DNA of 32,183 nt. Origin: Rhodoferax sp. (lineage in GTDB: Bacteria > Pseudomonadota > Gammaproteobacteria > Burkholderiales > Burkholderiaceae_C). This document shows positions 4,099-23,026 of the stretch, piece after piece. A program made the translations under genes and the position numbers. The DNA is taken from positions 1 through 32,183 of the forward strand of contig JARXAU010000008.1 of NCBI GenBank assembly GCA_029865675.1, given 5' to 3'. Position 1 is the first letter of the stretch. Every line of letters starts with the position of its first letter. The notes below the pieces were generated by a model. The model worked only from the letters and a program-made list of their open reading frames with translations, made no database searches and had not been told where the DNA came from.

Positions 4099-4338
4099 GT
4101 GGATGCAATACGAGAGCTGTTGACGGTGGAAGGCCGCACAGTGACGATCACCTTGCCAGACCACTTTCACGCCAAGCGCGTGGAAGTCATCGTGCTGAAT
4201 GCCGATGAGCAGCTTGCGCCCACGCCAAAACTTGCATTCAGCGGCCGGCGCCCGTCACCCTTGCTGGCAGGCACACGCATCGTCGGAGACATCATGGCGC
4301 CGGTGGTTGCCGACGCCGACTGGGACACCCTGAAGTGA
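4099..4338 (+). CDS. vapB: VapB-type antitoxin (DUF2281-like)
   Basis: This 79-residue protein opens with a GTG at 4099, placed by an AAGGGG ribosome binding site nine bases upstream. It has a short N-terminal strand region (VTITLPDHFHAKRVEVIVL) and the C-terminal motif LAGTRIVGDIMAPVVADADW. The tail resembles DUF2281-type antitoxins, where it inserts into the PIN toxin active site. The stop (TGA, 4336-4338) overlaps the vapC start at 4338. It lies 28 bases after gmd, so the three genes probably share a transcript. VapB normally binds its own promoter together with VapC; no promoter was identified here. Confidence 0.75.
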   Translation: MDAIRELLTVEGRTVTITLPDHFHAKRVEVIVLNADEQLAPTPKLAFSGRRPSPLLAGTRIVGDIMAPVVADADWDTLK

Positions 4339-6386: not shown

Positions 6387-6417
6387 GTGCCCTGCGCACA
6401 CTTTGTCACAACAGCCG

Positions 6418-6433
6418 AAACAGACGTCTGTTT
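6418..6433. promoter_or_regulatory. 16-bp perfect palindrome, candidate operator
   Basis: AAACAGACGTCTGTTT is a perfect 16-base palindrome centred at ACGT. It lies 32 bases before the favoured start (6465) of the large DUF1800 gene. Its size and symmetry fit a binding site for a dimeric repressor or activator. The regulator is unknown and none is encoded nearby. Confidence 0.4.
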
Positions 6434-6464
6434 AGACGCATACCTGCAACCTAGGGATTGCAAG

Positions 6465-9400
6465 ATGCAGATATCGGGTAGTCAGCCGTCCACGCGTCCT
6501 ATTTCTGAATGTCCTTCGACCATGCTGCCCCCATTGAACTTGTTCCACAAGGCACGTTTTGCCTGCATGGTCTTGATTGTTTGTTTGACAACAGCTTGCG
6601 GAGGGGGGAGCCCGGCCGATACGGGGCCTGGCGCACAAGCTGAGCGTGCACCGGCGCCCGAGGCAGACAGCCAAGCTGGGCCCACAAAGCAACGGCAATC
6701 AGTAACGATAAACGCAGAAGGCCTGGCAACAGCGCTGGTTGTGCGCGCCCACGGTGTGTCGGCAGGTGGCGTCGGCCCGATCATGCAGGTGTGGGCAAAC
6801 GGCGTTCTGATTGGGACAGTTGAAGTCCGGGCGACGCTGCCCACTGACTACGGGTTCACAGTTCCGGGTCTGCTGGTTGGAACGCGTCTGGATATCGTGT
6901 TCACCAACGACGCTACCGTTGGTACATCCAACCGCGACTTGATCGTCACCCATGCTGTTGCCGGCAAGACGCTAGTACTGCCCACGGCACCCAACGTGAC
7001 CTATGACCGCGGTATCGGCACCGCCGCATTCGACGGCGCTGATGTGATCAGTGGTCGGTCAGACATGGGCTGGAGTGGAGCCTTGCGCATGACCTGGCCC
7101 GAACCCAACCTGACCAGCACTGTCACCGTGCGCGCCAGCGGCACGCTGGCCGACGGCGTGGGCCCTGTGATGGCCCTGCGCGTGGACGGCGTGGTGATGG
7201 GCAGCACCGAGGTGCGGTCCACCGAGCCCGCCGACCATGTGTTTGCCGTGTCCCCGCTGGCCGTGGGCAGCAGGATCGACGTTGTCTACACCAACGACGC
7301 CACCATCAACGGGCAAGACCGCAATCTCAACGTGCACTACCTGATGGCGGGCACCACCGTGCTGTTGCCTAACGCGCCAGGTGTCACGCTTGACCTGGGC
7401 AGCGGCCTGGCGGCATTTGATGGTGTGGGCGTGCAACCCGGCCAGTCCAGCATCACCAGCAACGGCGCGCTGCGCGGCCGATGGCCCGCCGCCAACATGA
7501 CCGACACGCTCACCGTGCGGGCCAGTGGCACGCTGGCAGGCAATGTCGGGCCCATGATGCTGGTGCTGGTCAACGGCGTGGTGCTGGGCACCACCGAAGT
7601 GCGCAGCACCACGCCCACTGATCTGCGCTTTGCCACCCTGCCCCTGCAACCCGGCGCCCAGGTGCAGGTGCGCAACACCAACGCCGGCAACCTGAACCTG
7701 GCCTACACCATGGCGGGCAAAACGGTGTTGCGCCCTACCGATGCAAGGATGCAAGCCAGTGCCGCGACGGCGCTGGACGGCCCTTGGCCGCAACCTAATC
7801 TCACCGACACCATCACCGTGCGCGCACGGGGCACGCTGGCCGGTGGTGTGGGCCCCGTGATGCAGGTGCTGATCGACGGCGTGTTGGTGGGCACCGCTGA
7901 AGTGCGCAGCACAGACTTTGCCGACTACAGCTTCCCCGCCTTCGCCATGCAACCAGGGCGCAAGGTCGATGTCGCCTTCACCAACGACGCATTGATCAAC
8001 GGGGCAGACCGCAATCTCTTCGTCGCCTACCTGCTCTCTGGCAACACCTTCCAGTTGCCCAACGCCAGCGGCAACACATTCGACCGTGGCGCTGGGGCAG
8101 CAGCCTTCGATAGCACCGACGTCATAGCAGGCACTGGCAACCTGCCCGACAACGGCGCGCTGCGCACCACCTGGCCGCTGCCCAACATCACCAGCAGCGT
8201 CACCGTGCGCGCCAGCGGCGCCCTGGCAGGCAACGTCGGGCCCATCATGCGGCTGTGGGTTGATGGCGTGGCCGTCAGCAGCGTCGAAGTGCGCGCAACC
8301 AGCCCTACCGACTACAGCCTGCCCACCCCACCGCTGCAGCCCGGCAGCAGGGTCAACGTCACATTCGACAACCCCGCCACCGTGGATGGCGCACAGCGCC
8401 GGCTAGACCTGGCCTACCTGATGGCCGGCACCACCGTGCTGAAGCCCAGCACCAGCGGCGCGGTGTATGCCGCCGGCAACCTGCAGGCCAGCTGGCCGAC
8501 GGCCAACCTCACCGACACCCTGACTGTGCGCGCCTACGGCGTGCTGGCAGGCAACATCGGCCCGATCATGCAGGTGCTGGTGGACGGCGTGCTGGTCGGT
8601 ACGCAGGAAGTGCGCGCCACCGACCCAGCCGACTATCGGTTTCTGGTGCCAGCCCTGAAGCCAGGCACCAAGATCGATGTGGCCTACACCAATGACAGCT
8701 CGGTCAACGGTGTGGACCGCAACCTGTTCGTCTTGCAGCTCATGTCGGGCAACACCTTCCAGTTGCCGACCGCCCCTGGCAGCACCTACGACCGCGGCGC
8801 GGGCGCCGCAGCCTTTGACGGGCTGGACCTGATCCCCAGCACGGGCGCCGTGCACAGCAATGGCGCTGTGCGCATGACCTGGCCCGAGCCCAACCTGACC
8901 AGCACTGTCACCGTACGCGCCAGCGGCACATTGGCCGAAGGCGTGGGCCCGGTCATGGCCCTGCGCGTGGATGGCGTGGTGGTGGGCAGCATCGAGGTGC
9001 GGTCCACCGAGCCCGCCGACCATGTGTTTGCCGTGCCCCCGCTGGCCGTGGGCAGCAGGATCGACGTGGTCTACATCAACGATGCCACCATCAACGGGCA
9101 AGACCGCAACCTCAACGTGCACTACCTGATGGCAGGCACCACCGTGCTGCTGCCAACCGCGCCAGGTGTCACGCTTGACCTTGGCAGCGGCCTGGCGGCA
9201 TTTGATGGTGTGGGCGTGCAGCCCGGACAGTCCAGCATCGCCAGCAACGGCGCATTGCGCGGCAGATGGCCCGCCGCCAACATGACCGATACGCTCTCCG
9301 TGCGCGCCAGCGGCACGCTGTCAGGCAATGTCGGGCCCCTGATGCAGGTGCTGGTCAACGGCGTGGTGCTGGGCACCACCGAAATACGCAGCAGCACCCC

Positions 9401-12371
9401 CACTGATTTGCGCTTTGCCACCCTGCCCCTGCAACCGGGCGCCCAAGTGCAGGTGCGCAACACCAACGTCGGCAACCTGAACGTGGCCTATGCCACCGCC
9501 GGCAACACCGTGATGCGCCCCACCGATGCAGGCGTGCAGGTCAGCGCCACCGCCCCGATGCTGGGCGCCTGGCCCCAGCCCAATCTCACCGACACCCTGA
9601 CTGTGCGCGCCAGGGGTGTGATTGCAGGCAATGTTGGCCCCATCATGCAAGTGCTGGTCGATGGCGTGCTGGTCGGGTCAACTGAAGTGCGCAGCACTGA
9701 CTTCAGCGATCACACCTTCTCCACCTTCCCCATGCTGCCTGGGCGCAAGGTGGACGTGGTCTACACCAACGACGCGACCATCAATGGGGTAGACCGCAAC
9801 CTCTTCGTCGCATACCTGATCGCTGGCAACACCTCTGTTCTACCCAACGCCGCCGGCAACACCTATGACCGCGGTGCAGGCGCAGCCGCCTTCGATGGCA
9901 AGGATGTCATCGCAGGCATGGGCACCATGGCCTGGTGGGGTGCATTGCGCACCACCTGGCCGCAACCCAACATCACCAGCACCGTCACCGTGCGCGCCCG
10001 CGGAACACTGGCAGGCAACATCGGGCCCATCATGCGTCTGTGGGTCGATGGCATCGCAGTCAGCAGCACCGAGGTACGTGCATCCACACCCACCGATTAC
10101 GTCATGCCAACACCAGCGTTGCGGCCGGGCAGCAGGATTGATCTGGCATACACGAATGACGCTGTGATCGATGGCGCCGACCGCAACTTGACAGTGCACT
10201 ATTTGCAGGCGGGCAACACCTATGTGCTGCCAACCATGAACATCGTGCAATACGACCTCGGCAACAACAACGCCGCATTTGATGGGGTCGATCAGCTGCC
10301 GGGGCAAGCCACGCTTGGCTTGGCTGGGGCGTTGCGGCTGGCATGGCCCACCGCCAACGTGACAGACACCATCACAGTACGCGCCTATGCCAACCTTGCC
10401 GGCGGCATTGGCGCGTTGATGCAGTTTCGGGTCGATGGTGTCGTGCTGGGGACCCAAGAAGTGCGGTCTACGACGGGCGCAGACTATCTGTTCGCTGCGC
10501 CACGTCTTTCAACTGGGACCCGCATCGATCTGGCGTTTCTGAATGACTTGAATCTCAATGGAGAGGATCGCAATCTCTACGTCCAGTACATCAAAGCGCA
10601 GGGCACAACCCTGGTTTCCACCGGATCAGGGGTTCAACTAGACCCCGGCGCAGGCGAAGCTGCGTTCGACGGCGTCGGGACTGCTGCAAGTAATGGCGCC
10701 CTCACTGGCAATGGCGCGCTGCGGTTCGCTATGCCCGCCCCCAAGCCAGCGCCAACAGACCTGCAAGCCCAATACGGCGTATCACGCTTCCTGCAGCAAG
10801 CAGCGTTCGGCGGGTCTCTGGCAGAGATCGCCCGATTACAAGCAATGTCCCCAAGCGCTTGGCTTGCTGAGCAGATGGCTATGCCGGCCACACCAGACTT
10901 TGTGACAGCGGTGCAGTCACGGTTTGATCTGGGCGACAGCTGGCGGCCCTTGGGGAACCAGTACTCGCCAACCTGGGCCGCACAGCGTTTCTGGCAGGGT
11001 GCTGCGAGCGGCACCGACGTTCTGCGCAAGCGGGTGGCGTTTGCGCTGCACCAGACCTTGATGGTGTCGCAAGCCGACAGCAATCTGTACTACCAGGTGC
11101 GGCCTTATGCGGCCTACCTCGACACGCTCAATCGCTATGCATTCGGCAACTATCGCCAGTTGCTGGAAGAAGTGGCGCTAAGCCCGGCAATGGGCCTGTA
11201 CCTGAGCCACATGCGCAATCGACCAGAAGACCTGGGAACCGGCCGCATGCCTGACGAGAACTTTGGCCGCGAAGTGATGCAGCTGTTCAGCATTGGCCTG
11301 CAAGAGTTGAACATCGACGGTACGCCGCGGCTGAATACCCGGGGCGAGCCGATAGAGACTTATACCAATGACGATGTGATGGCCATGTCCAAGGTTTTCA
11401 CGGGATGGAGTTGGGCGTTTCCTGACAATGAACTGACAACACAAAACTTCCGCTGGGGCAACCCCGGCACGTCCGCAGCGACCGATAGGCGCATTGACAC
11501 GCTGAAGATGAAGGCGTATCCCGGCCAGCACTCACTTGGCGAAAAGCGGCTATTTGCCGGCAAACCCAATGCCCTGGTGATACCAGCCGGTACCGCTGGC
11601 CCTGAAAGTGTGCGGCTGGCGTTGGACGCGCTGTTCCAGCACCCCAACGTCGGCCCGTTCATCGGCCGACAACTGATCCAAAGGCTGGTGACCAGCCACC
11701 CCAGCAATGGCTACGTGGCACGTGTGGCACAGGTGTTCAACAACAACGGCAGCGGCGTGCGGGGCGACCTGGGCGCAGTGGTGCGGGCCATTCTGCTGGA
11801 CCCCGAGGCATCAAACCCACCGGTAGGCAGCATCGGCAAACTGCGCGAGCCAGTGATGCGCGTGGCGCACTGGATGCGCAGCTTTGGCGCCACGTCGGTC
11901 AGCGGGCAATTCATGTTGGCCTATGAACTGGAATCGCAAGGACAACGCGCGCTTTTCGCCCCGTCTGTGTTCAGCTACTTCCGGCCGGGTTTTGTACCCC
12001 CGAACACAGCTTTCTCCGCAAACAGAATCACAGTGCCAGAGTTCCAGACCGTCAATGAATCAAGCACGGCAATGTGGGCCAACACCGCGTTGGCCATGGC
12101 CGGCACCGGACTTGGGTGGACGGGCACGCGCACCGATGTCACCGCCAACCTGCAGCCGCTGGCAGACCTGTCTGCAGTTGGCGATGTGGATGGCCTGATC
12201 GAACGGCTAAACCTTTTGCTGTATGCGGGCAGGATGAGCGCCACACTCAAGCAAGACTTGCTGGAATCAGTCACCAGCGTCTGGGGCAACGACGCTGCCA
12301 GCCACCTCAACCGTGCCAGAGTGGCCGTGTTCCTTGCCCTCGCATCCCCTGAATACTTGGTGCAACGCTGA
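6465..12371 (+). CDS. Large lipoprotein: eleven CBM60-like modules plus C-terminal DUF1800 domain
   Basis: This protein of about 1968 residues is exported. A lipoprotein signal (MLPPLNLFHKARFACMVLIV then CLTTAC) puts the lipidated Cys at 6597-6599. The start is taken at 6465, which has an AGGGA site seven bases upstream; ATG 6522 gives a more typical 25-residue signal, and ATG 6387 is too far upstream. Residues ~80-1426 hold eleven tandem modules of 101-129 residues, separated by WPxPN/WPxAN linkers. The core is VRA.G....GP.M...VDGV..G..EVRST, then Y(T)NDA.ING.DRNL.V.YL.AG. This resembles calcium-dependent xylan-binding CBM36/CBM60 modules. Residues ~1431-1968 are a DUF1800 domain with the hallmark PDENFGREVMQLFSIGL. 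DUF1800 has no established activity. The stop overlaps the DUF1501 start by one base. Role inferred: a polysaccharide-binding outer-surface protein working with the DUF1501 partner. Confidence 0.85.
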   Translation: MQISGSQPSTRPISECPSTMLPPLNLFHKARFACMVLIVCLTTACGGGSPADTGPGAQAERAPAPEADSQAGPTKQRQSVTINAEGLATALVVRAHGVSAGGVGPIMQVWANGVLIGTVEVRATLPTDYGFTVPGLLVGTRLDIVFTNDATVGTSNRDLIVTHAVAGKTLVLPTAPNVTYDRGIGTAAFDGADVISGRSDMGWSGALRMTWPEPNLTSTVTVRASGTLADGVGPVMALRVDGVVMGSTEVRSTEPADHVFAVSPLAVGSRIDVVYTNDATINGQDRNLNVHYLMAGTTVLLPNAPGVTLDLGSGLAAFDGVGVQPGQSSITSNGALRGRWPAANMTDTLTVRASGTLAGNVGPMMLVLVNGVVLGTTEVRSTTPTDLRFATLPLQPGAQVQVRNTNAGNLNLAYTMAGKTVLRPTDARMQASAATALDGPWPQPNLTDTITVRARGTLAGGVGPVMQVLIDGVLVGTAEVRSTDFADYSFPAFAMQPGRKVDVAFTNDALINGADRNLFVAYLLSGNTFQLPNASGNTFDRGAGAAAFDSTDVIAGTGNLPDNGALRTTWPLPNITSSVTVRASGALAGNVGPIMRLWVDGVAVSSVEVRATSPTDYSLPTPPLQPGSRVNVTFDNPATVDGAQRRLDLAYLMAGTTVLKPSTSGAVYAAGNLQASWPTANLTDTLTVRAYGVLAGNIGPIMQVLVDGVLVGTQEVRATDPADYRFLVPALKPGTKIDVAYTNDSSVNGVDRNLFVLQLMSGNTFQLPTAPGSTYDRGAGAAAFDGLDLIPSTGAVHSNGAVRMTWPEPNLTSTVTVRASGTLAEGVGPVMALRVDGVVVGSIEVRSTEPADHVFAVPPLAVGSRIDVVYINDATINGQDRNLNVHYLMAGTTVLLPTAPGVTLDLGSGLAAFDGVGVQPGQSSIASNGALRGRWPAANMTDTLSVRASGTLSGNVGPLMQVLVNGVVLGTTEIRSSTPTDLRFATLPLQPGAQVQVRNTNVGNLNVAYATAGNTVMRPTDAGVQVSATAPMLGAWPQPNLTDTLTVRARGVIAGNVGPIMQVLVDGVLVGSTEVRSTDFSDHTFSTFPMLPGRKVDVVYTNDATINGVDRNLFVAYLIAGNTSVLPNAAGNTYDRGAGAAAFDGKDVIAGMGTMAWWGALRTTWPQPNITSTVTVRARGTLAGNIGPIMRLWVDGIAVSSTEVRASTPTDYVMPTPALRPGSRIDLAYTNDAVIDGADRNLTVHYLQAGNTYVLPTMNIVQYDLGNNNAAFDGVDQLPGQATLGLAGALRLAWPTANVTDTITVRAYANLAGGIGALMQFRVDGVVLGTQEVRSTTGADYLFAAPRLSTGTRIDLAFLNDLNLNGEDRNLYVQYIKAQGTTLVSTGSGVQLDPGAGEAAFDGVGTAASNGALTGNGALRFAMPAPKPAPTDLQAQYGVSRFLQQAAFGGSLAEIARLQAMSPSAWLAEQMAMPATPDFVTAVQSRFDLGDSWRPLGNQYSPTWAAQRFWQGAASGTDVLRKRVAFALHQTLMVSQADSNLYYQVRPYAAYLDTLNRYAFGNYRQLLEEVALSPAMGLYLSHMRNRPEDLGTGRMPDENFGREVMQLFSIGLQELNIDGTPRLNTRGEPIETYTNDDVMAMSKVFTGWSWAFPDNELTTQNFRWGNPGTSAATDRRIDTLKMKAYPGQHSLGEKRLFAGKPNALVIPAGTAGPESVRLALDALFQHPNVGPFIGRQLIQRLVTSHPSNGYVARVAQVFNNNGSGVRGDLGAVVRAILLDPEASNPPVGSIGKLREPVMRVAHWMRSFGATSVSGQFMLAYELESQGQRALFAPSVFSYFRPGFVPPNTAFSANRITVPEFQTVNESSTAMWANTALAMAGTGLGWTGTRTDVTANLQPLADLSAVGDVDGLIERLNLLLYAGRMSATLKQDLLESVTSVWGNDAASHLNRARVAVFLALASPEYLVQR
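7110..8894 (+). repeat. Block 1 of duplicated module array (modules 2-6)
   Basis: Five modules at 7110-7496, 7497-7799, 7800-8186, 8187-8507 and 8508-8894 have lengths of 129, 101, 129, 107 and 129 residues. The block is 1785 bp, and its first modules recur 1785 bp downstream. Module 2 differs from module 7 at about seven of 129 residues. Module 1 (about 6702-7109) lies outside the duplicated blocks. Confidence 0.85.
8895..10742 (+). repeat. Block 2 of duplicated module array (modules 7-11)
   Basis: Modules lie at 8895-9281, 9282-9584, 9585-9971, 9972-10358 and 10359-10742. They pair in order with modules 2-6. The short-module position is conserved (modules 3 and 8, both 101 residues, both lacking the ND...DRN loop). 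Module 10 is 22 residues longer than its counterpart, module 5. Divergence from block 1 increases towards the 3' end. Confidence 0.85.
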
Positions 12372-13783
12372 TGACCACTACCAACGCCCGCCGTCAATTC
12401 TTGCGGGCTGCCACCGCATTGGCAGCCAGCCCTGGCATGCCTGGGCTGAGCATGTCGCTGGCTGCACTGACCGCACTGGCAGCACAGACCAGCCAAGCTG
12501 CTGACGTGAGCGGCCCATACAAGGCCATCGTCTGCCTCTTCATGCACGGTGGTTGCGACACCCACAACTGGGTGGTGCCTACCGACCCAACCGGCTATGC
12601 ACAGTACGCCGCAGCACGAAGTGAATTGGCATGGCCCCTGCAAAAGCTGCAGCCCATCCTGGTCGCCGGCCAAGCCGCTGGTCGCACTTTTGGCATGCCT
12701 GAAGAGCTTGCGCCGTTACGCAAGTGGTATGAATCCGGCCAGGCAGCCGTGGTTGCCAACGTGGGCCCGCTGGTTCGGCCCGTCACGCGGGCTGAGTACC
12801 TGGCCGGCGTCGGCCTGCCGTCAAAGCTGTTTTCGCACAACGACCAGGCGTCCACCTGGCAGAGCCTGCAGCCTGAAGGCGCACCTTCAGGCTGGGGCGG
12901 GCGCATGGGCGACATCTTGATGTCGGCCAATGCTTACCCGGTGTTCACATCGGTGTCGCTCAACGGCAACGCAGTGTTCTTGTCAGGCAGCAGCGTCACC
13001 CAGTACCAGATGGGCGCGGACGGGCCAGTACAGATTGCCGGCCTGACAGGCAGTGCTGTGTATGGCGCCAGCGCCGCACCTGCAGCCTTGCGGCGCCAAC
13101 TGGCCGCTGGCGGCAGCCACCCATTGCAAGCCGAGTACACCCGCGTGCTGCAGCGCAGTATCGGCACCACCAGCGTATTGCAGGCTGCCCTGGCAGGTGT
13201 CTCAGTGCCTGCCATACCGGGCACCGTGCTGTCCAATGCAACAGGCGGCACCGCACTGGACAAGACCAGCCTGGCCCGCCAGTTGCGCATGGTGGCGCAA
13301 CTGGTGGGTGCCGGCCCGGGCCTGGGCATGCGGCGGCAGGTGTTCATGGTCAGCATGGGCGGGTTTGACACACACGCTAACCAGATGCGCGACCAGCCAG
13401 CCCACATGGCCCAAGTCGCCCATTCGATCGACTATTTCATGACGGCCTTGGCCACCATGGGCCTGCTCAATAACGTGACGCTGTTCACGGCATCGGACTT
13501 TGGCCGCACGCTGCTGAGCAACGGCGATGGTAGCGACCACGGCTGGGGCAGCCACCACTTTGTACTGGGAGGCGCAGTGCAGGGCCGCAACATCCACGGC
13601 AGGTTCCCCATCACCAGCCTGGGCACCAGTGACGACGTGGGCAGCGGCCGGCTGCTGCCAGCCTATGCTGTAAGCCAGGTGGCAGCCCCGTTGGGCCGCT
13701 GGCTGGGGCTGAGCGCCGGCGAGGTGGCAACAGTTCTGCCCGGCCTGGCCAACTTTGACGCACAGGCATTGCGGTTCATCTGA
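12371..13783 (+). CDS. DUF1501 family Tat-exported protein
   Basis: This 470-residue protein has a twin-arginine type N-terminus (RRQFLRAAT at residues 7-15) followed by a long Ala-rich hydrophobic stretch. It is therefore probably exported folded, perhaps with bound metal. Motifs of the alkaline-phosphatase/sulfatase-like DUF1501 family are MHGGCDTHNW (58-67), SHNDQ (155-159), GGFDTH (D333, H335), SDFGRT (D376), and SDHGWGSHH (D389, H390, H395, H396). These may form a metal site. The ATG overlaps the DUF1800 stop (TGATG), so the two are translationally coupled, as is usual for this pair. The paralogue at the left window edge shares long stretches. Substrate unknown; the setting suggests exopolysaccharide. 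Confidence 0.92.
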   Translation: MTTTNARRQFLRAATALAASPGMPGLSMSLAALTALAAQTSQAADVSGPYKAIVCLFMHGGCDTHNWVVPTDPTGYAQYAAARSELAWPLQKLQPILVAGQAAGRTFGMPEELAPLRKWYESGQAAVVANVGPLVRPVTRAEYLAGVGLPSKLFSHNDQASTWQSLQPEGAPSGWGGRMGDILMSANAYPVFTSVSLNGNAVFLSGSSVTQYQMGADGPVQIAGLTGSAVYGASAAPAALRRQLAAGGSHPLQAEYTRVLQRSIGTTSVLQAALAGVSVPAIPGTVLSNATGGTALDKTSLARQLRMVAQLVGAGPGLGMRRQVFMVSMGGFDTHANQMRDQPAHMAQVAHSIDYFMTALATMGLLNNVTLFTASDFGRTLLSNGDGSDHGWGSHHFVLGGAVQGRNIHGRFPITSLGTSDDVGSGRLLPAYAVSQVAAPLGRWLGLSAGEVATVLPGLANFDAQALRFI

Positions 13784-13997
13784 AGGCAGTTGCCCTGCAG
13801 CGCGCGGGGCATCGGTAACATTTGCTGCACGGGTAGGCGGTGGACGCAGGCACACAAAATGCTGGTGTGCTTTGTGCGTTAGCATTTCTCTGCTGACGAC
13901 TTGTCACAGCCCTGACGGGTGCGAGGCGGATGATCAGGCCCATACATGATGGGCTGGCTACCACCGCCTGCAAGCCCGCCCCGAATCGCAATTGCTC
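13784..13997. other. Intergenic gap between DUF1501 gene and glycosyltransferase run
   Basis: These 214 bases show no gene. Two small inverted repeats are visible: GCACAC/GTGTGC at 13850-13870 with a nine-base loop, and GCCCAT/ATGGGC at 13938-13954 with a five-base loop. Neither is followed by a clear T tract, so terminator function is doubtful. A promoter for the downstream run could sit here, but no strong match was found. Confidence 0.3.
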
Positions 13998-15194
13998 ATG
14001 CATTTCATCTTGCTGGTGCACCACGACGCAGATCTTTATGGTGCAGACCAGTCGCTGCTAAGAACCGTGCGGGCCATGAAGGCGAGCCCGTTCACCCCCA
14101 TCGTCACCCTGCCTCACCAAGGCCCGCTGGTTGCGTTGCTGCTGGCTGAAGGCGCAGAGGTACACATTGGCCCGGTGGGCAAGCTGACCCGCCAATTGAT
14201 GCGCCCCGCCGCCCTGCACAGGTTGCTGGCCGACCTGTGGCGATCGGTCAGGTTCATGGGCCGCGTGGTTGCGGGCAGGCCAATCAGCTTGGTGTACACC
14301 AACTCTGTGGCTGCGTTGGGTGGCGCACTGTGGGCTGCGCTGCACCGCAAACCCAAGCTATGGCATGTGCGCGAAATCGTGGTGGCGCCCAAGCTGGCCG
14401 CCGTTGGGTTCCCTACAGTGCTGCAACTGCTTGGTGGTTGGTGCGTGTGCAATTCCAACGCCACTCGGCAGTGGATTGTGGGCACCCGGCCCGCGCTGGC
14501 GCAGCGCAGTTCAGTCATCTGGAACGGGCTAGAAGCCACTACGCCGATCAGGCCAGGCGCTGCTGCTGCGTTCCGCGCCAAGATGGGGCTACAGCCAGGC
14601 GACATAGTGGCCACCCTGGTGGGCCGCATCAACCGCTGGAAGGGCCAGGGCGTGCTGATCGAAGCCGCCCGCCTGCTGAAGGCGCAGGGGCATAGGCAGC
14701 TGAAGTTCTTGATCGTGGGTGACGTGGCCGACGGGCAGAACCATTTCAGGCAAGACATGCTTGCGCAGATTGATGGCGCAGGCGTGCAAGACAGCGTGCT
14801 GTGGCACCCCTTCACCCCCGATGTGAACACCGTGTGGGCGGCGTCTGACATTGCCGTGGCCCCGTCCATCGACCCCGAGCCCTTCGGCCGTGTGGCCATT
14901 GAGGCCATGGCCCAACAGCTGCCCGTGGTGGCCGCCGCCCACGGTGGGTTGGCTGAAATAGTGTTGGACGACGTGACCGGCATCCTGGTGCAGCCAGGCA
15001 GCGCGCCTGCCCTGGCCGCAGCCATTGCCCGCCTGGCCGATGCGCCCACCCTGCGCGCGCAGATGGGCCAGGCCGGCAGGCAACGCCAACAGCAATGCTT
15101 CAGCCAGGCCGAACATGATCAGAAGCTGATGGCGCTGCTGACCACCCTGGCCGCCCAGGGCACACCAACGCAAGCGGCTGCGGCCAAGCCATGA
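13998..15194 (+). CDS. GT4-family glycosyltransferase
   Basis: This 398-residue protein has the GT-B fold pattern of family 4 retaining glycosyltransferases. The N-terminal donor-independent half starts MHFILLVHHDADLYGADQSL. The C-terminal half begins around residue 195, with the phosphate-binding LVGRINRWKGQGVLIEAA segment (about 207-224) and the nucleotide-sugar motif DPEPFGRVAIEAMA (about 292-305). It has no signal peptide and should act on the cytoplasmic face, adding a sugar to a lipid-linked oligosaccharide. The sugar cannot be read from the sequence. The ATG at 13998 is preferred over a TTG two codons earlier. The stop overlaps the next gene's start (ATGA). Confidence 0.88.
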   Translation: MHFILLVHHDADLYGADQSLLRTVRAMKASPFTPIVTLPHQGPLVALLLAEGAEVHIGPVGKLTRQLMRPAALHRLLADLWRSVRFMGRVVAGRPISLVYTNSVAALGGALWAALHRKPKLWHVREIVVAPKLAAVGFPTVLQLLGGWCVCNSNATRQWIVGTRPALAQRSSVIWNGLEATTPIRPGAAAAFRAKMGLQPGDIVATLVGRINRWKGQGVLIEAARLLKAQGHRQLKFLIVGDVADGQNHFRQDMLAQIDGAGVQDSVLWHPFTPDVNTVWAASDIAVAPSIDPEPFGRVAIEAMAQQLPVVAAAHGGLAEIVLDDVTGILVQPGSAPALAAAIARLADAPTLRAQMGQAGRQRQQQCFSQAEHDQKLMALLTTLAAQGTPTQAAAAKP

Positions 15195-16321
15195 GTACCG
15201 CAACTTCAGGCAACCGCCCCCACTTGCGCATCTTGGGCATCCGCGGTGTGCCCGCAGCCCACGGCGGCTTTGAAACTTTTGCCGAGTACCTTGCACCGTA
15301 TCTGGTGCAACTCGGCTGGCAGGTGACGGTGTATTGCCAGCAAGACAGCGGCAACGGCATCACCCATGACCAATGGCAGGGTGTGCACCGGGTGCACATC
15401 CCCGTCAATGCGGCCGGTGCGGCCGGCACCATCGTGTTTGACTGGTTGGCCACCCGGCATGCATCGCGCACCCAAGACCTGTGCCTGACCCTGGGCTACA
15501 ACACAGCCGTGTTCTGCGCCCTTCTGCGCTTGAAGGGCGTGCCCAACGTCATCAACATGGACGGCATTGAATGGTCGCGCGCCAAGTGGGGCCCGCTGGC
15601 CAAGGCCTGGTTCTGGCTGAACGAGCGCGCCGGCTGCTGGCTGGGCAACCACCTGGTGGCCGACCACCCTGCCATCAAGCAGCACCTGGCCACCCGCGTG
15701 CGCGCCGACAAGATCACCACCATCCCCTACGGCGCTGACCAATTGCACGGCCTACCCACCAGCCCTGTGCTGGCACTGGGCCTGCAACCTGGCAAGTACC
15801 TGACAGTGATTGCGCGACCTGAGCCCGAAAACTCACTGCTGGAGATCGTGGCGGCCTTCTCGCGCCAGCCGCGCGGTGTGCAACTGGCCGTGCTGGGCAA
15901 CTACAGCGATGCCAACCCATACCACCGCGCCGTGAAGGCCGCAGCCAGTGCCGAGGTGAAGTTTCTGGGCGCCATTTACGACAAGACCGTGGTGCAGGCG
16001 CTGCGCCTGCACTGCATGGCCTACATCCACGGCCACCAGGTGGGCGGCACCAACCCGTCATTGGTGGAAGCGCTGGGCGCCGGCAACCCTGTGATAGCGC
16101 ATGACAATGCCTTCAACAGGTGGGTGGCGGGCGACGGTTCGCAGTTCTTTCGTGATGTTGAGAGCTTGGCAGAAGCTATCGATTTGATGATTGGCGACAG
16201 GAAACTGAGCCAAACCATGAAGCTAGCAAGTTTACGCAGATTCAAAGATGGATTGACTTGGCCGAGTGTTCTTGAGCAGTACAACGACTTGTTGGCCAAA
16301 TCAATGGCCAAAACCAGTTGA
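15191..16321 (+). CDS. DUF1972/GT4 glycosyltransferase (rhamnosyltransferase-like)
   Basis: The 376-residue protein begins with the DUF1972 signature GIRGVPAAHGGFETFAEYL (about residues 16-34). This domain occurs at the N-terminus of GT4 enzymes in polysaccharide clusters, some of them rhamnosyl- or fucosyl-transferases. The middle NMDGIEWSRAKWG motif and the C-terminal GGTNPSLVEALGAGNPVIAHD donor-binding motif (with its E as the usual catalytic glutamate) are intact. The start overlaps the stop of the preceding GT4 gene, so translation is coupled. From about 16140 onward the base composition becomes AT-richer, continuing into the polymerase gene. The acceptor and donor are not predictable. 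It is cytoplasmic and acts on the lipid-linked precursor. Confidence 0.9.
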   Translation: MSTATSGNRPHLRILGIRGVPAAHGGFETFAEYLAPYLVQLGWQVTVYCQQDSGNGITHDQWQGVHRVHIPVNAAGAAGTIVFDWLATRHASRTQDLCLTLGYNTAVFCALLRLKGVPNVINMDGIEWSRAKWGPLAKAWFWLNERAGCWLGNHLVADHPAIKQHLATRVRADKITTIPYGADQLHGLPTSPVLALGLQPGKYLTVIARPEPENSLLEIVAAFSRQPRGVQLAVLGNYSDANPYHRAVKAAASAEVKFLGAIYDKTVVQALRLHCMAYIHGHQVGGTNPSLVEALGAGNPVIAHDNAFNRWVAGDGSQFFRDVESLAEAIDLMIGDRKLSQTMKLASLRRFKDGLTWPSVLEQYNDLLAKSMAKTS

Positions 16322-16335
16322 GGCAGAAAGCACAA

Positions 16336-17874
16336 ATGCAACAGCCTATCAAAGTACTTCCAATCTTCATTTGGATGCTGTTTCTGGTATTGGCACTGCT
16401 AATCGGCCTGGCAATTCCTTTACTGCCAATGAAAGTGTCCACAATCTTCGGGCTGATGATCATTACAGCAATGGGCATAATTGTTGCCTTCTTATTGCCA
16501 GCTAGAGAGTCGGTGCCAGAACGCATGATTGCGGCACTTTTGGTACTTGCAATTGCCAGCAAATTTTTATGGCCGAGCTTTTCTTATATTCCAATTCCAG
16601 GGCTGCCAACCAAGAACCCACAGCGCTTAATTTGGGCTGCCTGTTTGCTATATTGGGTGTACACCCTCATGGTAAACAAAGAACTTCGCGAGAGATTGGC
16701 GAAGAGACTATCACAATCAAGCACATCACTTTTGGTTGGTATATTTTTTACGTGGCGGTTCATTGCCATTTTCAATAGCGATTACCCTGACGTTTCAGTT
16801 CGCATATTTTTGTTAGAGCTTTTTGACTATGTTCCAGCCTATCTTTTTGCGTTAACTTGGCTGAAGCATTCAATTGATGTTCGGCGCATTACTACATCAC
16901 TGGTTGTGGTGTTGATTTGCATCCAGTTTATTACATTGATTGAAGTAATTACCAAAAGCAATCTGTTCTTGGCACTGGTGCCCACGGATACATCGAGCGA
17001 AGAATTTTTAGCTGCCGCGACTGAAACCAAGATGCGCGCTGGCTTTTACCGTGCACAGGCGTCATTCAACCATCCACTTCTATTGGCCCAGTTTGCGGTG
17101 TCCGTCCTGCCACTTGTATTGGCTGGCCTGTTCGCGAAAGGACAGATGCTACGTAGGGGACTGTCTGTTTTTGCCCTTCTGGGTATCCCAATGATTCTTT
17201 GGGCAACCCAGACAAGAACTGCCATGGCAAGCGCTGCAGTGGTGGTTGTTGTTGCGGGGCTGCTTGTTGCCTACAACGCCGCCACGGTAAAGCAACATGG
17301 TTTCAATAAGAATATCGGCGGTACCATTTTCCTTCTATGTGGTTCTCTTCTGGCAGTAGCCGCGCTGTTTTTGGTAATTGGCTTGGCGGAAGGGCGAACG
17401 GCTGAAGAATCTGGCAGTACTTTTGCCAGGGTTCTTATGCTGGAGCTGGCCTTGGATGCAGCAAAAGATTCGTGGCTATTGGGATATGGCCCAGGTGTGG
17501 GCGGCTACAAAGCAGCATTGACCAGCAGCAATGGCAGATCTTCTTTGGACAGCCAAATTCTGAGCCAATTGCTAGAGGCGGGCGTTGTCGCAATGGTCGT
17601 TTACAGTCTCTTCTTCTTCCAGGCTGGCAAGCGATTTTTCGGGTTAGCGAAAGTTGCGGGTACAGAAGCAGGGATTACCTATGCGATGTGGTGCCTGACC
17701 GTGGTCATATTCGGCTTCACGTCGCTCGTGCTATCGACACCGCACAACATGCCGCTACTGTTTTTTGCTCTTGGGGCGATTGTCGTCTTGAAGGAAACTT
17801 CCATCTCAGCGGCTTCGGCAACCCAAGAAAAACGACAGCTTTTCATGCGCCCGAATTTTCTTCGGCACGAATAA
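16336..17874 (+). CDS. O-antigen ligase/polymerase-like membrane protein (Wzy-type)
   Basis: This 512-residue protein consists mostly of hydrophobic segments (about 11-13 predicted by eye). It has a large hydrophilic loop around residues 210-250 (PTDTSSEEFLAAATETKM) and a second around 370-420 containing the GYGPGVGGYK motif. Such a G-x-G-rich loop with a preceding Arg-containing segment is common in Wzy polymerases and WaaL ligases. It probably joins repeat units on the periplasmic face. The ATG at 16336 is chosen over a TTG at 16318 that overlaps the previous stop. The gene is clearly lower in GC than the flanking genes, as is usual for polymerases of exchangeable polysaccharide loci. Polymerase versus ligase cannot be separated by sequence alone. 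Confidence 0.82.
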   Translation: MQQPIKVLPIFIWMLFLVLALLIGLAIPLLPMKVSTIFGLMIITAMGIIVAFLLPARESVPERMIAALLVLAIASKFLWPSFSYIPIPGLPTKNPQRLIWAACLLYWVYTLMVNKELRERLAKRLSQSSTSLLVGIFFTWRFIAIFNSDYPDVSVRIFLLELFDYVPAYLFALTWLKHSIDVRRITTSLVVVLICIQFITLIEVITKSNLFLALVPTDTSSEEFLAAATETKMRAGFYRAQASFNHPLLLAQFAVSVLPLVLAGLFAKGQMLRRGLSVFALLGIPMILWATQTRTAMASAAVVVVVAGLLVAYNAATVKQHGFNKNIGGTIFLLCGSLLAVAALFLVIGLAEGRTAEESGSTFARVLMLELALDAAKDSWLLGYGPGVGGYKAALTSSNGRSSLDSQILSQLLEAGVVAMVVYSLFFFQAGKRFFGLAKVAGTEAGITYAMWCLTVVIFGFTSLVLSTPHNMPLLFFALGAIVVLKETSISAASATQEKRQLFMRPNFLRHE

Positions 17875-17898
17875 AATATCTAGGGTAACTTAGGCAAT

Positions 17899-18915
17899 AT
17901 GTTCGAAAGCCAAGCCCCAAGCGGCAATCAAAATCGCATCTATGTAGTTCTTCTCAATTGGAACGGAGCTGCGGATACGCTAAACTGTTTACAGTCGCTT
18001 CTGCAAATTCAAACCAACCGGGTTGACTATGTGGTTTGTGACAACGCCTCCAGTCAGAAAGACTTCACCTCGCTTCAAACCGGTGTGGCTGATTTTTGCA
18101 CTGCCAACTCAATAAGGTTGCAGTGCTTCGAATCAAAAAACTGGCCAACGACGATTTGCCCAGCCAATGGCCCAAAGAATCTATTCTTGATTCAAACCGG
18201 TTCGAATCTCGGCTTCGCTGGCGGTGTAAATGTTGGACTTCGATTTGCGCAGAGTCGCGGAGACTTGGCTTATGCGTGGATTTTGAACAATGATTGCGAA
18301 ATTTCATCAGGTGCACTGGAAACATTGGTTTCGCGTTCAATGGCTGAGCAAACCATCGGCATCTGCGGGTCCACTTTGGTCTACCACGGCGACAGAAGCC
18401 GCGTGCAAGCCTTGGGCGGCGCACGCTACCTGCCATGGCGCGGGCGCTCACTGTCCATTGGCGCGTTTTCGGCAGCAAACACCATTCCCACCGATCCAAC
18501 CCGAGTGGAGCGCCAGTTGGACTATGTTGTCGGCGCGTCAATGCTGGTCAGCCGCAAGTTTCTGGATGTGGTTGGCTTGATGGACGAGCGCTATTTCCTC
18601 TATTCCGAAGAACATGACTGGGCACACCGTGGCCGGCAAGCTGGCTTCACATTGGGTTGGGCACCAGATTCAGTGGTGTTCCATAAACACGGTGCCAGCA
18701 TCGGCAGCTCGGCCAGTGGCGGTTCGCCGCTTTCGATGTTCTATCTTTTCCGTAGCAAAGTCCTTTTTACTTCACTGCACTTCCGCAGACGCTTGCCGGT
18801 TGTGTTGATGTCGCTCGCAATGGACGCGTTGAAGTTCGCATTGAAAGGCCACCCCAGCAAGACATGGGCAGCTTTGCGCGGCATGCTGTCCTACAACGGC
18901 CCAGCTCGTTTTTGA
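17899..18915 (+). CDS. GT2-family glycosyltransferase (WbbL/rhamnosyltransferase-like)
   Basis: The 338-residue protein has the GT-A fold of family 2. It begins RIYVVLLNWNGAADTLNCL with a VVCDNAS strand (about 45-51). The metal-binding DxD-like NNDCE is at 130-134, and the C-terminal catalytic motif DERYFLYSEEHDW is at 229-241. It lacks a signal peptide and is cytoplasmic or membrane-associated. This subtype often transfers rhamnose or another deoxysugar. The ATG at 17899 has a TAGG element eight bases upstream. It lies 24 bases after the polymerase gene and 18 before the acyltransferase gene, so one transcript is likely. The first half shares the lower GC of the polymerase gene. Confidence 0.88.
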   Translation: MFESQAPSGNQNRIYVVLLNWNGAADTLNCLQSLLQIQTNRVDYVVCDNASSQKDFTSLQTGVADFCTANSIRLQCFESKNWPTTICPANGPKNLFLIQTGSNLGFAGGVNVGLRFAQSRGDLAYAWILNNDCEISSGALETLVSRSMAEQTIGICGSTLVYHGDRSRVQALGGARYLPWRGRSLSIGAFSAANTIPTDPTRVERQLDYVVGASMLVSRKFLDVVGLMDERYFLYSEEHDWAHRGRQAGFTLGWAPDSVVFHKHGASIGSSASGGSPLSMFYLFRSKVLFTSLHFRRRLPVVLMSLAMDALKFALKGHPSKTWAALRGMLSYNGPARF

Positions 18916-18933
18916 CCATTCGGCAGCGCGGCC

Positions 18934-19641
18934 ATGCTCAGGAACCTGCTTAACAAATTTGCAACGCGCGTTAAGGGCAGCGACTACCAACTCGATCCAA
19001 AGCTGCCACTGCTCAGTCTGGTTGGTTTGGCTTCGCGTCGTTTGACATGGCTGATCCGTGGCAGGTTGGCTTTTCCTTTGCGACGATCAGCCATCTATTT
19101 GGGTGACGGTAGCGTGCTGCGCAACCGTGCGCAAATGTCTTTCGAGCCCGGTGTCACCATCGGCCGTGGTTGCGTAGTTGATGCGCTGTCTGCCAATGGC
19201 CTGCGCATTGGCAGAAACGTCAACATCGGCCCCTACACCACCATTCAGGCCAGCGGCGTGTTGTCACGCCTCGGCACGGGCTGTTCGATCGGCGCAAATT
19301 CGGGCATTGGTGGCTATTCATTCATTGGTTGTGGTGGCGGCGTTGCCATCGGCAGCAATGTGATCATGGGCCAATACGTCAGCTTTCATTCCGAGAACCA
19401 TGTCATTGACCGAACTGATGTGCCGATTCGAGTCCAAGGTGTGGTCCGCAAAGGGATCGTGATTGAAGATGACTGCTGGGTTGGCGCCAAAGCCACGTTC
19501 CTGGACGGCTGCCACGTTGGTAAGGGCTGCGTTGTCGCCGCAGGCGCCGTGGTGCGCGGCAACATCCCCCCTTACTCCATCATCGGTGGCGTGCCAGCTA
19601 AGGTCATTCGCAGCCGACTGGCAGTAGACAGTAGTGCATGA
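18934..19641 (+). CDS. Left-handed beta-helix (hexapeptide) acyltransferase
   Basis: The 235-residue protein has imperfect hexapeptide repeats from about residue 60 to 225 (IGRGCVVDALS, IGRNVNIGPYTTI, IGANSGIGGYSFIG, IGSNVIMGQYVSF). It also contains the conserved HSENHVID active-site region (catalytic His) and the C-terminal NIPPYSIIGGVPAKVIR. This is the LbH acetyltransferase fold (WcaF/CatB/Maa type), which uses acetyl-CoA and acts as a trimer in the cytoplasm. It probably O-acetylates a sugar of the repeat unit. Its stop overlaps the start of the next GT4 gene (ATGA). The acyl group and target are not known. Confidence 0.9.
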   Translation: MLRNLLNKFATRVKGSDYQLDPKLPLLSLVGLASRRLTWLIRGRLAFPLRRSAIYLGDGSVLRNRAQMSFEPGVTIGRGCVVDALSANGLRIGRNVNIGPYTTIQASGVLSRLGTGCSIGANSGIGGYSFIGCGGGVAIGSNVIMGQYVSFHSENHVIDRTDVPIRVQGVVRKGIVIEDDCWVGAKATFLDGCHVGKGCVVAAGAVVRGNIPPYSIIGGVPAKVIRSRLAVDSSA

Positions 19642-20894
19642 ACCCAATGCCGATCATGAAGCGCGTCACACTGTTTTCAACGGACATTCCATACCCAGCC
19701 AACCGCGGAGGTAGAGCGGATATCTGGCGCAGAGTGTTGGCGCTTTCGAGATTGGGCGTTGCAGTTCAGCTTGTGTGCTTCTTCGATGACGTTTCTGGCA
19801 AGCGGCCAGAGCAACAGCACCTTGAAGCAGTTCGCGCAGCCACGGCGGGCTTGCTGCTCTATCCGATCAAGCAAGGCAAGCGCGCATTGCTTGAGGCACT
19901 TATCAAGTTGCCGCAGATGCCCTGGCACGTTGCACGCCGGAGCCTGGGCGCGCTGGACCTGCGCGACCTGTGCAGCGTTGTCCAAGAGTTTCAGCCCGAC
20001 TGGCTTTGGTGTGAGGGCCCCTGGTGCGGGCCGCTAGTCCTTGCAGTGCATGACCATATCCAGGTCCCTGTCGCTTACCGTTCCCACAACCTTGAACATG
20101 TGTACATGGCGCGGCAAGCCAGTGCTGCCCGCCGCCCGCGCGATCGACTGGCATGGACCATTGCATGCGTGGGGCTGAGACGGTTTGAGCAGCAAATGCT
20201 GACCACAGCCGACTGGGTGTTCGACATCTCCTTTGACGACATGGCTTTCTGGCAGGCCCAAGGCATCCGAAACATCAGTTGGTTGCCACCAATTGCCGAG
20301 TCTGCGTTGGGCATGGGCACCAGCGCAGATCTGCCGTATACCGAACAAAAGCACGATGTGCTCTTTCTCGGCAACCTGACCACACCCAACAACGTGCGCG
20401 GGGTCGAGTGGCTGGTGAATGAGATTCGGCCCCTTGTGCTGGCGCAACGGCCGGGCACGCAGTTTGTGGTGGCGGGGTCCAACCCTGGCGAGCATGTTCG
20501 CAACCTGTGCAAAGCACCCAACGTCACCTTGCTGCCCAACGTCGCCGACGCTTTGGCTCTATACCGCCAGGCCCGCGTACTGGTAAACCCGGTGCGCACG
20601 GGCAGCGGCACCCATGTCAAGGCGATCGAGATGCTGATGATGCGTACGCCCATCGTCACGTCCACCCAAGGCACGCAGGGCATGCCCGCCGAAGTGAAGC
20701 GCCTGTTCAAGGTAGCCGACACCAGTGAAGCCTTTGCCAGCCATGTGCTGACAGCGTTGGACCAGCCCACTGACTGCTGGCATGAGCGATCAGACGCGCG
20801 GCGCCTGTTTAGTGTGCAGGGTCTGGCAGACGCATTGGCCAAGCTGCCGATGGCGACGGCCTTGCCCGCATTGCAACGCGCTGGTACGGCATGA
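19638..20894 (+). CDS. GT4-family glycosyltransferase
   Basis: This 418-residue GT-B enzyme has an N-terminal segment DIPYPANRGGRADIWRRV (about 15-32) typical of exopolysaccharide GT4 proteins. Its acceptor-domain motif is YRSHNLEHVYMARQA, and the C-terminal domain has LGNLTTPNNVRGVEWLV and PVRTGSGTHVKAIEMLMMRT. The last stands in place of the E-x7-E motif, with E at the expected position. The ATG at 19638 overlaps the acyltransferase stop; Met4 and Met7 are alternative starts. The stop overlaps the lyase start as ATGA. Its position directly before a polysaccharide lyase makes it likely that it serves the same polymer. Substrates are not predictable. Confidence 0.88.
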   Translation: MNPMPIMKRVTLFSTDIPYPANRGGRADIWRRVLALSRLGVAVQLVCFFDDVSGKRPEQQHLEAVRAATAGLLLYPIKQGKRALLEALIKLPQMPWHVARRSLGALDLRDLCSVVQEFQPDWLWCEGPWCGPLVLAVHDHIQVPVAYRSHNLEHVYMARQASAARRPRDRLAWTIACVGLRRFEQQMLTTADWVFDISFDDMAFWQAQGIRNISWLPPIAESALGMGTSADLPYTEQKHDVLFLGNLTTPNNVRGVEWLVNEIRPLVLAQRPGTQFVVAGSNPGEHVRNLCKAPNVTLLPNVADALALYRQARVLVNPVRTGSGTHVKAIEMLMMRTPIVTSTQGTQGMPAEVKRLFKVADTSEAFASHVLTALDQPTDCWHERSDARRLFSVQGLADALAKLPMATALPALQRAGTA

Positions 20895-23026
20895 CAACGC
20901 CGGCGCGCAGCAGCAGGCTGACTGGGCAACGCCGCTGGCTGCTGCAACGGCTGGCCATGTTGGCCACAGCCCCCGCATGGCTGCGCCCAGTGAACGCTGC
21001 CGCAGCAGGGGCAAACACGGAGACATTCTTTGCGATGGTGTTGCGCAGGGTGCGTGACGACTACATGGCAGAAGGCGGGCCGGGCGACGCCACGCGCTTT
21101 GTAGCGACCATCAACACCAACGGCACCTGGGACGACGTGGACTATGCAGACCGCGGCATTGGCGACTGGCGCCCGATGCCGCACTTGGTGCGCCTGCGCC
21201 GCATCGCCCGTTCGCTGGCACAACCGGGGCAGGCGCCCCCAGCCATGCAGACGGGCACTGATGCCCTGAACCGTGGGCTGCGCGCCTGGTTGCAACGCAA
21301 GCCCATGTCTGACAACTGGTGGCACAACACAATTGGCCAGCAAAGGGAAATTGGTCGCGTCATCGTGCTTGGTCGCGCATTGTTGGATGAAGACATCGCG
21401 GTGCAGGCCATAACCCTGCTGCAAGACCCAGGGATGGTGCCACCAGCCCAAGCGACGGGACAAAACCTCACTTGGTACGCCACACAGCAAGTGCTGCGTG
21501 GCGCATTGCGGAACGATGCTGGTGATCTGGTGCGCGCCAGCGCCGCGCTGGCATCCACCTTGCGCATCACGTTGGACGAAGGAATCCAGCCCGACTTCAG
21601 CTTTCACCAGCACGGTGCCCAGTTGTATACCGGCGGCTATGGCCTCGGCTTTTTGCAAGACAACGTGCAGCTTGCCGCATGGCTGGCAGGCACGCCCTGG
21701 GCATTGTCTGGCAGCGGGCTGGACTTGCTTGCCAACTACGCGTTGCGCGGCATGGTGCCGCTGCTGCGGGGCACGCAGTGGCTGGAGTGGGGGGCGCGTG
21801 GGCGCGAATTCACCCGCAAGGAAGACTTGCCACGGCCCGGTCTGGTGGCCAATGCGATGGTGCGGCTGGCGCCGCTGGTGCCAAGGCGCAGCACCGACCT
21901 GTCAGCCGCTGCGGCGCGCACCAAGGTGGGTGGGCCACCACCGGCGACAACCAACCAGTTGTTCTGGCGATCCGACTTCATGGTGCACCAGACGCGCAGT
22001 GTCTACATGTCAGTCAAGATGTGCAGTGCCCGCACGGTGGGCACCGAGTCAGGCAACGGCGAAAACTTGCAGGGGTTCTGGTTGCCCTTTGGCGTGACTT
22101 ACCTGTTGCGCCGGGGTGATGAATACGATGGCTTACCGCCGGTATGGAACTGGTCGGCCCTGCCAGGCTTAACGGCACCCGATGCCGTACCACCGCTAAA
22201 GGGCTACCAGACTCACCAAGCGCAGTTTGTCGGCGGCGTGTCGGACGGTGCAACCGGCGTGGCGACCATGGCGCTGGACAAGTTGCAGACAACCGGCAGA
22301 TTGAGCTGGTTCTTCATGGGCGACACGATGGTGGCCATGGGCGCTGGTATCCGATCCACCCATGACCACCCGATAGCGACCACGCTGAATCAATGCCGCT
22401 GGACTGGCCTGGTACACACCAGCGCCGGCCCATTGCCCGAAAGGGGCGACCGCACATCGACTGCAGGGGCCCGGTGGCTTTGGCACGACGGGCTGATGTA
22501 CCTGCCGCTGGACGGGCCGGATCTACTGGTCCAACGTGAGCACCGCACGCAGAGCAGCAGTGCTATCAACAGTGCCCTTGGTGCGACCAATGCCAACGCC
22601 AAAGTGTTGACGATCGCCATGCAGCATGGCCTGCGGCCTGCTGGGGCGAAGTTTGCCTACGCTGTGTCTACCCCTACAGCAATGCCAGTTAGTGCCACTG
22701 TGGACTTGAAGCTGCAAATTCTTTCGAACAGCGAATCCCTGCAAGCCCTGCGCTGGCTGACGACCAGCCAAATCATGGCGGTGTTTCACGCCAAGGGGAG
22801 CCTTCTGATTCGAGAGGGCCTCACGCTGGACGTTGACTCGCCCTGCATCTGTCTCATCACTGCGCAAGCTGGCGAATTTGCGATCGGCGTTGGCGATCCA
22901 ACACGGCGCCTGGGCCAGATCGGGTTGAACCTGCGCAACAACGCCGGCAAATCACCCAGCATCAAGTTGACACTTGGCAGTACGACGCCCATACCTTACC
23001 AGGACACGTGGGTAGGGCAACTTTGA
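20891..23026 (+). CDS. Family-8 polysaccharide lyase, exported
   Basis: The 711-residue protein has an N-terminal export signal (QRRWLLQRLAMLATAPAWL, ending near PVNAAAAG). The RRW makes Tat export possible. Family PL8 (hyaluronate, chondroitin AC and xanthan lyases) signatures are visible: NWWHNTIGQQREIGR (142-156), N192 in the QNLTWYATQQVLRGAL region, the catalytic H241 in FSFHQHG, Y250 in YTGGYG, and GREFTRK (304-310). The ESGNGEN..GFWLPFG region and the beta-sandwich C-terminus follow. PL8 enzymes cleave uronic-acid glycosidic bonds by beta-elimination. The start overlaps the preceding GT4 stop, so it belongs to the biosynthetic operon. Probable role: trimming or releasing the polymer in the periplasm. 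This implies a uronic acid in the polymer. Confidence 0.88.
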   Translation: MTTPARSSRLTGQRRWLLQRLAMLATAPAWLRPVNAAAAGANTETFFAMVLRRVRDDYMAEGGPGDATRFVATINTNGTWDDVDYADRGIGDWRPMPHLVRLRRIARSLAQPGQAPPAMQTGTDALNRGLRAWLQRKPMSDNWWHNTIGQQREIGRVIVLGRALLDEDIAVQAITLLQDPGMVPPAQATGQNLTWYATQQVLRGALRNDAGDLVRASAALASTLRITLDEGIQPDFSFHQHGAQLYTGGYGLGFLQDNVQLAAWLAGTPWALSGSGLDLLANYALRGMVPLLRGTQWLEWGARGREFTRKEDLPRPGLVANAMVRLAPLVPRRSTDLSAAAARTKVGGPPPATTNQLFWRSDFMVHQTRSVYMSVKMCSARTVGTESGNGENLQGFWLPFGVTYLLRRGDEYDGLPPVWNWSALPGLTAPDAVPPLKGYQTHQAQFVGGVSDGATGVATMALDKLQTTGRLSWFFMGDTMVAMGAGIRSTHDHPIATTLNQCRWTGLVHTSAGPLPERGDRTSTAGARWLWHDGLMYLPLDGPDLLVQREHRTQSSSAINSALGATNANAKVLTIAMQHGLRPAGAKFAYAVSTPTAMPVSATVDLKLQILSNSESLQALRWLTTSQIMAVFHAKGSLLIREGLTLDVDSPCICLITAQAGEFAIGVGDPTRRLGQIGLNLRNNAGKSPSIKLTLGSTTPIPYQDTWVGQL

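Follow-up and report, generated by a model that had tools for sequence, protein, structure and literature searches.

A CBM60-bearing form of the DUF1800/DUF1501 pair in a Rhodoferax exopolysaccharide locus and its association with exosortase-B loci

Introduction

DUF1800 and DUF1501 are widespread families of exported proteins without known function. Genes for both, with a twin-arginine translocation (Tat) signal on DUF1501, have been found in operons with bacterial chitin synthase (chs) genes (2016, PMC5122149). These chs-DUF1800-DUF1501 operons are present in Dickeya, Pectobacterium, Brenneria and Agrobacterium vitis, where the pair is reported to have been acquired together with the chitin synthase genes, and a common function has been suggested (PMC5122149). 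In this study, a 32,183-nucleotide stretch of Rhodoferax sp. DNA (the window) is analysed, in which a central DUF1800/DUF1501 pair is followed by glycan assembly genes. The window is an entire contig (C32) of a genome that consists of 242 contigs and is ~70% complete. It resembles the chs operons in that a Tat-signal pair adjoins polysaccharide synthesis genes. However, the chs operons contain a transferred chitin synthase, whereas the window contains a Wzy-type exopolysaccharide (EPS) locus and a CBM60 array on DUF1800; no match to the chitin synthase family was found among the scanned window genes.

Relatives of the window pair lie in EpsD-EpsE-EpsF-EpsG-XrtB-EpsI loci, which resemble the exosortase (EpsH/XrtB) loci of the Methylobacillus 12S methanolan type (PMC1569441; TIGR03113, TIGR03028, TIGR03017). 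In the passages of that source consulted, DUF1800 and DUF1501 are not mentioned as components. The window differs from these loci in that it contains neither exosortase nor export genes, and none was found in its incomplete genome. The polysaccharide link of the pair is not new, because the chitin synthase operons have been reported, and the word "undescribed" in a preliminary description of the window is therefore too strong. Neither a CBM60-array DUF1800 protein nor a tie of such a protein to exosortase-B EPS loci was found in the literature searched, which leaves out most subscription journals. A DUF1800 protein with a CBM60 array, linked to exosortase B, is a new form of the known association of DUF1800/DUF1501 with polysaccharides.

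Results and Discussion

Linkage of the CBM60-bearing pair to exosortase-B loci

The central pair is encoded by two overlapping genes.

6387..12371, + strand: P0004, lipoprotein-like protein with 11 CBM60 modules and a DUF1800 domain (1994-codon open reading frame, ORF)
12371..13783, + strand: P0005, Tat-type DUF1501 protein (DUF1501 match 8.4e-29)

DUF1800 is encoded in 117 of 250 genomes of the order. When 40 loci from other genomes of the order were surveyed together with the window (42 DUF1800 copies), DUF1501 was located directly 3' of DUF1800 on the same strand in all 42. The DUF1800/DUF1501 pair is a real unit.

The subclade of the window pair was defined by searching 201 family genomes with the central DUF1501. 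This search gives ten matches with 58-71% identity in eight other genomes, and the left copy of the window with 59%, all others being at most 50% identical. Every DUF1800 partner in this subclade carries CBM60, with 1 to 11 units per protein. Eleven units are present in the window, in the second pair of G261 and in G326 (as counted with a profile derived from these units; Pfam gives 9), and at least six in G426, where the contig ends. A single unit is present in the first pair of G261 and in G414, G302 (two pairs), G307, G427 and G327.

The subclade pairs are located 12-30 kb from XrtB in six of the seven genomes having both (7/8 pairs), whereas the other DUF1501 pairs are linked to XrtB in only 2 of 44 genomes (3/64 pairs). 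The difference at the genome level is significant (Fisher P = 1.05e-5), although this value is somewhat inflated by relatedness; the linked genomes come from four genera (g133, g198, g199, g179), and contig breaks may conceal linkage in both groups. A conserved block beside the subclade pairs is common to five genomes. As named in G326, it comprises EpsD, EpsE, EpsF, an EpsG-like kinase (slightly below the cut-off), XrtB and EpsI type B. In G427, one gene was identified as a WcaJ-type initiating transferase, and three other loci contain homologues of it. Three glycosyltransferase (GT) genes of the window also have homologues in XrtB loci, as indicated in the following list of the genes downstream of the pair.

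13992..15194, + strand: GT4 glycosyltransferase (42% to a GT in the G426 XrtB EPS locus)
15191..16321, + strand: GT4/DUF1972 glycosyltransferase, rhamnosyltransferase-like (67% to genes of the G326 and G426 XrtB EPS loci)
16318..17874, + strand: Wzy_C polymerase/ligase-like membrane protein
17899..18915, + strand: GT2 glycosyltransferase
18934..19641, + strand: hexapeptide-repeat O-acetyltransferase
19638..20894, + strand: GT4 glycosyltransferase (36% to a GT in the G426 locus)
20891..23026, + strand: polysaccharide lyase family 8 (PL8) lyase, whose start overlaps the stop of the last GT4 gene (closest solved relative, chondroitinase AC)

These results support a tie of the CBM60-bearing subclade to exosortase-B EPS loci.

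The neighbours of ordinary pairs are different. No glycosyltransferase or EPS family is among the 25 commonest neighbour families of either half (Pfam tally of 273 neighbour genes at the 40 loci), indicating that a general EPS linkage of the pairs is untrue in this order. Single glycan genes beside pairs, such as the fcl-like and GT4-like neighbours at the L042 locus, occur by chance. Thus, the linkage of the pair to EPS genes proposed in the preliminary description holds for the CBM60 subclade but not for pairs in general.

Because the CBM60 form adjoins EPS genes in relatives while the ordinary form does not, the pair probably serves as an accessory for holding or modifying the polymer of the cell itself. 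The chances are about even that the central pair acts as an accessory module to a Wzx/Wzy-type exopolysaccharide locus, in which polymer holding, editing of a charged group and trimming by the PL8 lyase are combined. Alternatively, all DUF1800/DUF1501 pairs may share a general role in the envelope that does not involve polysaccharide; the window pair would then only have been inserted into a variable surface-glycan locus, and such loci are known hot spots of gene gain. The miscellaneous neighbours of the ordinary pairs are consistent with such a role, as is the complete congener G370, which has no match to the DUF1501 of the window. It is nevertheless unlikely, given that the linkage is specific to the CBM60 subclade and recurs in different genera, and that a transfer of the pair together with chitin synthase genes has also been reported (PMC5122149).

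In G403 (C1:3573902-3601141), an ordinary-type DUF1501 gene is located on each side of XrtB. Between these two DUF1501 genes lies L068, a 53% homologue of the UbiA-HAD protein encoded in the right part of the window. This region is a second, independent DUF1501-EPS linkage.

DUF1800 protein and its CBM60 array

The ORF of P0004 starts at 6387, so that 6465, previously given as the start of the region, is an internal ATG. The best lipoprotein start is at ~6522 (MLPP...LIVCLTTACGGG, judged by eye), and a lipobox-like LTTAC is present (read by eye). The CBM array spans ~6723-10628 and the DUF1800 domain ~10785-12359. The DUF1800 match (PF08811, 1.3e-77) scores 262 bits, as compared with a gathering cut-off of 26.1, and the E-N-x-x-R-E motif of this domain is invariant. 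Its structural model is very confident (predicted local distance difference test score, pLDDT, 96.5), and no relative was found in the PDB either by sequence search or by fold search. The DUF1800 fold is apparently without a solved relative, because a model of this confidence has no match in the PDB. The CBM60 units also have no PDB relative by sequence search.

P0004 resembles xylan-binding CBM60 proteins in that it matches the Pfam CBM60 model above the cut-off, in 11 stretches (PF16841, 6.8e-135, 440 bits), but differs from them in that it is an array of 11 without a catalytic glycoside hydrolase. In the window, the units u2/u7, u3/u8, u4/u9 and u5/u10 are paired, with identities of 63-93%, and the terminal unit u11 clusters with the units that end the other arrays and lies close to the solitary units of proteins with only one module. 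Several paired units in G326 and G261 are 98-100% identical. The units fall into fixed positional classes (a five-class higher-order repeat) common to several genomes, and the total of 11 is found in three lineages despite block homogenisation within each lineage. Comparison of the units suggests that the array began as a single DUF1800-proximal unit and grew to a cassette of five, after which blocks were duplicated or homogenised lineage by lineage. The positional classes are as expected for a selected array. The DRNL-type loop of CBM60 presumably binds calcium. In class c units this loop is missing in most proteins.

Another explanation is that the array binds an environmental plant or algal (xylan-like) polysaccharide, the pair being a surface adhesin or foraging module kept by chance in a surface-glycan locus. 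The ligands of the CBM60 modules characterised to date are beta-1,4-xylan and beta-1,4-glucans (PMC4725902), and CBM60 is otherwise rare in the order (4/250 genomes), both in accordance with this explanation. No CBM60-DUF1800 fusion was found in 369 sampled class genomes outside the family; CBM60-like proteins are encoded in three genomes of one genus outside the family, not in the DUF1800 frame. However, the XrtB EPS linkage spans genera, and the scanned window genes include no xylanase or plant-polysaccharide utilisation genes, making binding of an environmental polysaccharide improbable.

DUF1501 protein

Both DUF1501 proteins of the window match PF07394 clearly (101 and 100 bits; gathering cut-off 27). 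P0005 starts with a Tat-type RR-x-FL sequence (by eye), and 42 of 43 homologues retain both arginines of this sequence. A sequence search of the PDB with DUF1501 detected no relative. The DUF1501 model (pLDDT 86.6; predicted template modelling score 0.85) gives fold matches to choline sulfatase, alkaline phosphatases, chondroitin and carrageenan sulfatases, and EptC/MCR-1-type transferases, with a best E value of 1.8e-5. The best 50 PDB fold matches listed are all of the sulfatase, alkaline phosphatase or phosphoethanolamine-transferase type, except for entries labelled only by a glycosaminoglycan-metabolism study.

D63, S155, H156, D333, H335, R379, D389 and H390 show no variation across 43 sequences, the most distant of which share ~20% identity, and S155 is located at the start of a helix in the model. 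These residues fit, without proving, a metal site with a serine nucleophile. DUF1501 resembles the alkaline phosphatase superfamily (sulfatases, alkaline phosphatase, EptC/MCR-1/YejM) in its fold and in its invariant D / S-H / D-x-H / D-H set, but differs in its low identity (~8-14%) and in the last His ligand, which is not invariant. The model thus supports the alkaline-phosphatase-superfamily assignment made in the preliminary description, and the invariant residues are candidate metal and nucleophile residues. DUF1501 might instead be a catalytically dead or structural protein of this fold, the pair forming a surface scaffold. The variable position of the last His ligand, and the fact that no activity of the DUF1501 family was found described in the literature searched, are in line with this possibility. 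It is very unlikely, however, because the eight invariant residues are retained even among highly divergent sequences.

PL8 lyase

The preliminary description listed a CBM-rich DUF1800 lipoprotein, a Tat-type DUF1501 protein, glycan genes and a PL8 lyase on one strand, and the ORFs and domains agree with this gene content. The genes of the + strand run (6387-23026) mostly have overlapping or nearly touching ends, and no terminator-like site was found in the 208-nt gap 3' of the DUF1501 gene (12371-13783). The PL8 lyase is apparently intact, with all three Lyase_8 domains (N, core and C). It aligns with chondroitinase AC over most of its length and contains the NWWHN, QHG..GYG, R and ESGN.EN motifs (read by eye), to whose residues we presumptively assign the catalytic Asn, His, Tyr, Arg and Glu roles. 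Thus, it resembles PL8 lyases (chondroitinase AC, xanthan lyase) in domains and catalytic motifs, but its score is 315 bits, as compared with the NCBIfam chondroitinase-AC cut-off of 1000.

PL8 is encoded in only three of the 201 family genomes and three of the 250 order genomes, and was never found near a DUF1800/DUF1501 pair outside the window in either set. PL8 was therefore rejected as a conserved partner of the pair, contrary to its earlier inclusion in the system. A scan of the genome collection with this lyase detected only a distant Microbacterium protein. A gene of the PL5/alginate-lyase family (L048:13666-14841) and a UDP-glucose dehydrogenase gene adjoin the G261 pairs. Because G261 has this PL5-type lyase, a uronate-cleaving lyase, not PL8 itself, may recur, an idea that rests on two loci; the other subclade loci yielded no homologue of the PL5 gene.

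Proposed role of the pair

If the central pair is an EPS accessory module, the lipid-anchored DUF1800 protein would present its CBM60 array to the polymer of its own cell, and the array would retain this polymer near the surface via many weak, calcium-dependent contacts. The exported DUF1501 protein, as a metal-dependent enzyme of the alkaline phosphatase fold, would remove or transfer a charged (phospho- or sulfo-type) group borne by the polymer or by its carrier. Uronic acid-containing chains would be trimmed or released by the PL8 lyase, whose gene ends the run.

Several results weigh against this role. The ordinary pairs have no glycan neighbours, so that the core function of DUF1800/DUF1501 is not necessarily related to EPS. 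The CBM60 family is known as one of xylan-binding modules. The TM-scores of DUF1501 to known superfamily members are low (0.2-0.45), and the position at which its C-terminal His ligand would be expected (H395/H396) varies. The pairs of G414 and G302 are not linked to XrtB and have unrelated neighbours. Finally, XrtB and Wza (Poly_export) were not found in the Rhodoferax genome, the window included, for which the ~70% completeness of this genome may or may not account.

A broader and more tentative proposal, which we consider possible though somewhat doubtful, is that an outer component of the exosortase-B EPS systems in this family has so far gone unrecognised, with lipid-anchored CBM60-DUF1800 gripping the nascent polymer and exported DUF1501 editing a charged group on it. 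If true, this would provide the first testable substrate for DUF1800 and DUF1501. The tie of the subclade to one defined glycan locus, together with a built-in sugar-binding array, points to a concrete substrate class for both families.

Two pairs in one locus

A second DUF1501 gene is located at the left edge of the window.

3..1403, + strand: DUF1501 of the left pair, 5' end lost at the contig edge (DUF1501 match 2e-28)

Its DUF1800 partner is cut off, because the window is the whole contig. The left DUF1501 is 89% identical to that of the first G261 pair and groups with it with a support of 1.00, whereas the central DUF1501 groups with the second G261 pair (71% identity, support 0.78). The G261 pairs, ~10 kb apart, carry one and eleven CBM60 units, respectively. 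Since the window copies match different G261 pairs, two different pairs form a shared layout. The earlier suggestion of two copies of the system is thus borne out by the second DUF1501 gene and by the two-pair layout of G261, but the copies are not equal. The Rhodoferax genome contains a third, only distantly related DUF1800/DUF1501 pair on contig C74.

Other features of the window

No tRNA or Rfam family was found in the window, and no homologue of P0015 was found in the congener in a comparison meant to check the binning of contig C32. Further genes are as follows.

2958..4070, + strand: GDP-mannose 4,6-dehydratase (gmd)
4721..5701, + strand: GDP-L-fucose synthase-like epimerase (fcl-like; NF047922 482.6 bits, slightly below the 500-bit cut-off)
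24188-26275, - strand: acyltransferase-SGNH protein, full-length
right part of the window, - strand: UbiA-HAD protein, methyltransferase and Wzx-type flippase

Between the left DUF1501 gene and gmd, a HicB-like antitoxin domain precedes an ORF that matches the PIN domain only weakly (1584-2797, + strand); this is probably a toxin-antitoxin pair. A second, clear PIN-domain ORF (1.4e-16) is located between gmd and fcl (4335-4724, + strand), suggesting that toxin-antitoxin cassettes have been inserted among the sugar-nucleotide genes. A short acyltransferase-3 fragment (23398-23943, - strand) adjoins the acyltransferase-SGNH gene and is possibly a decayed acyltransferase copy.

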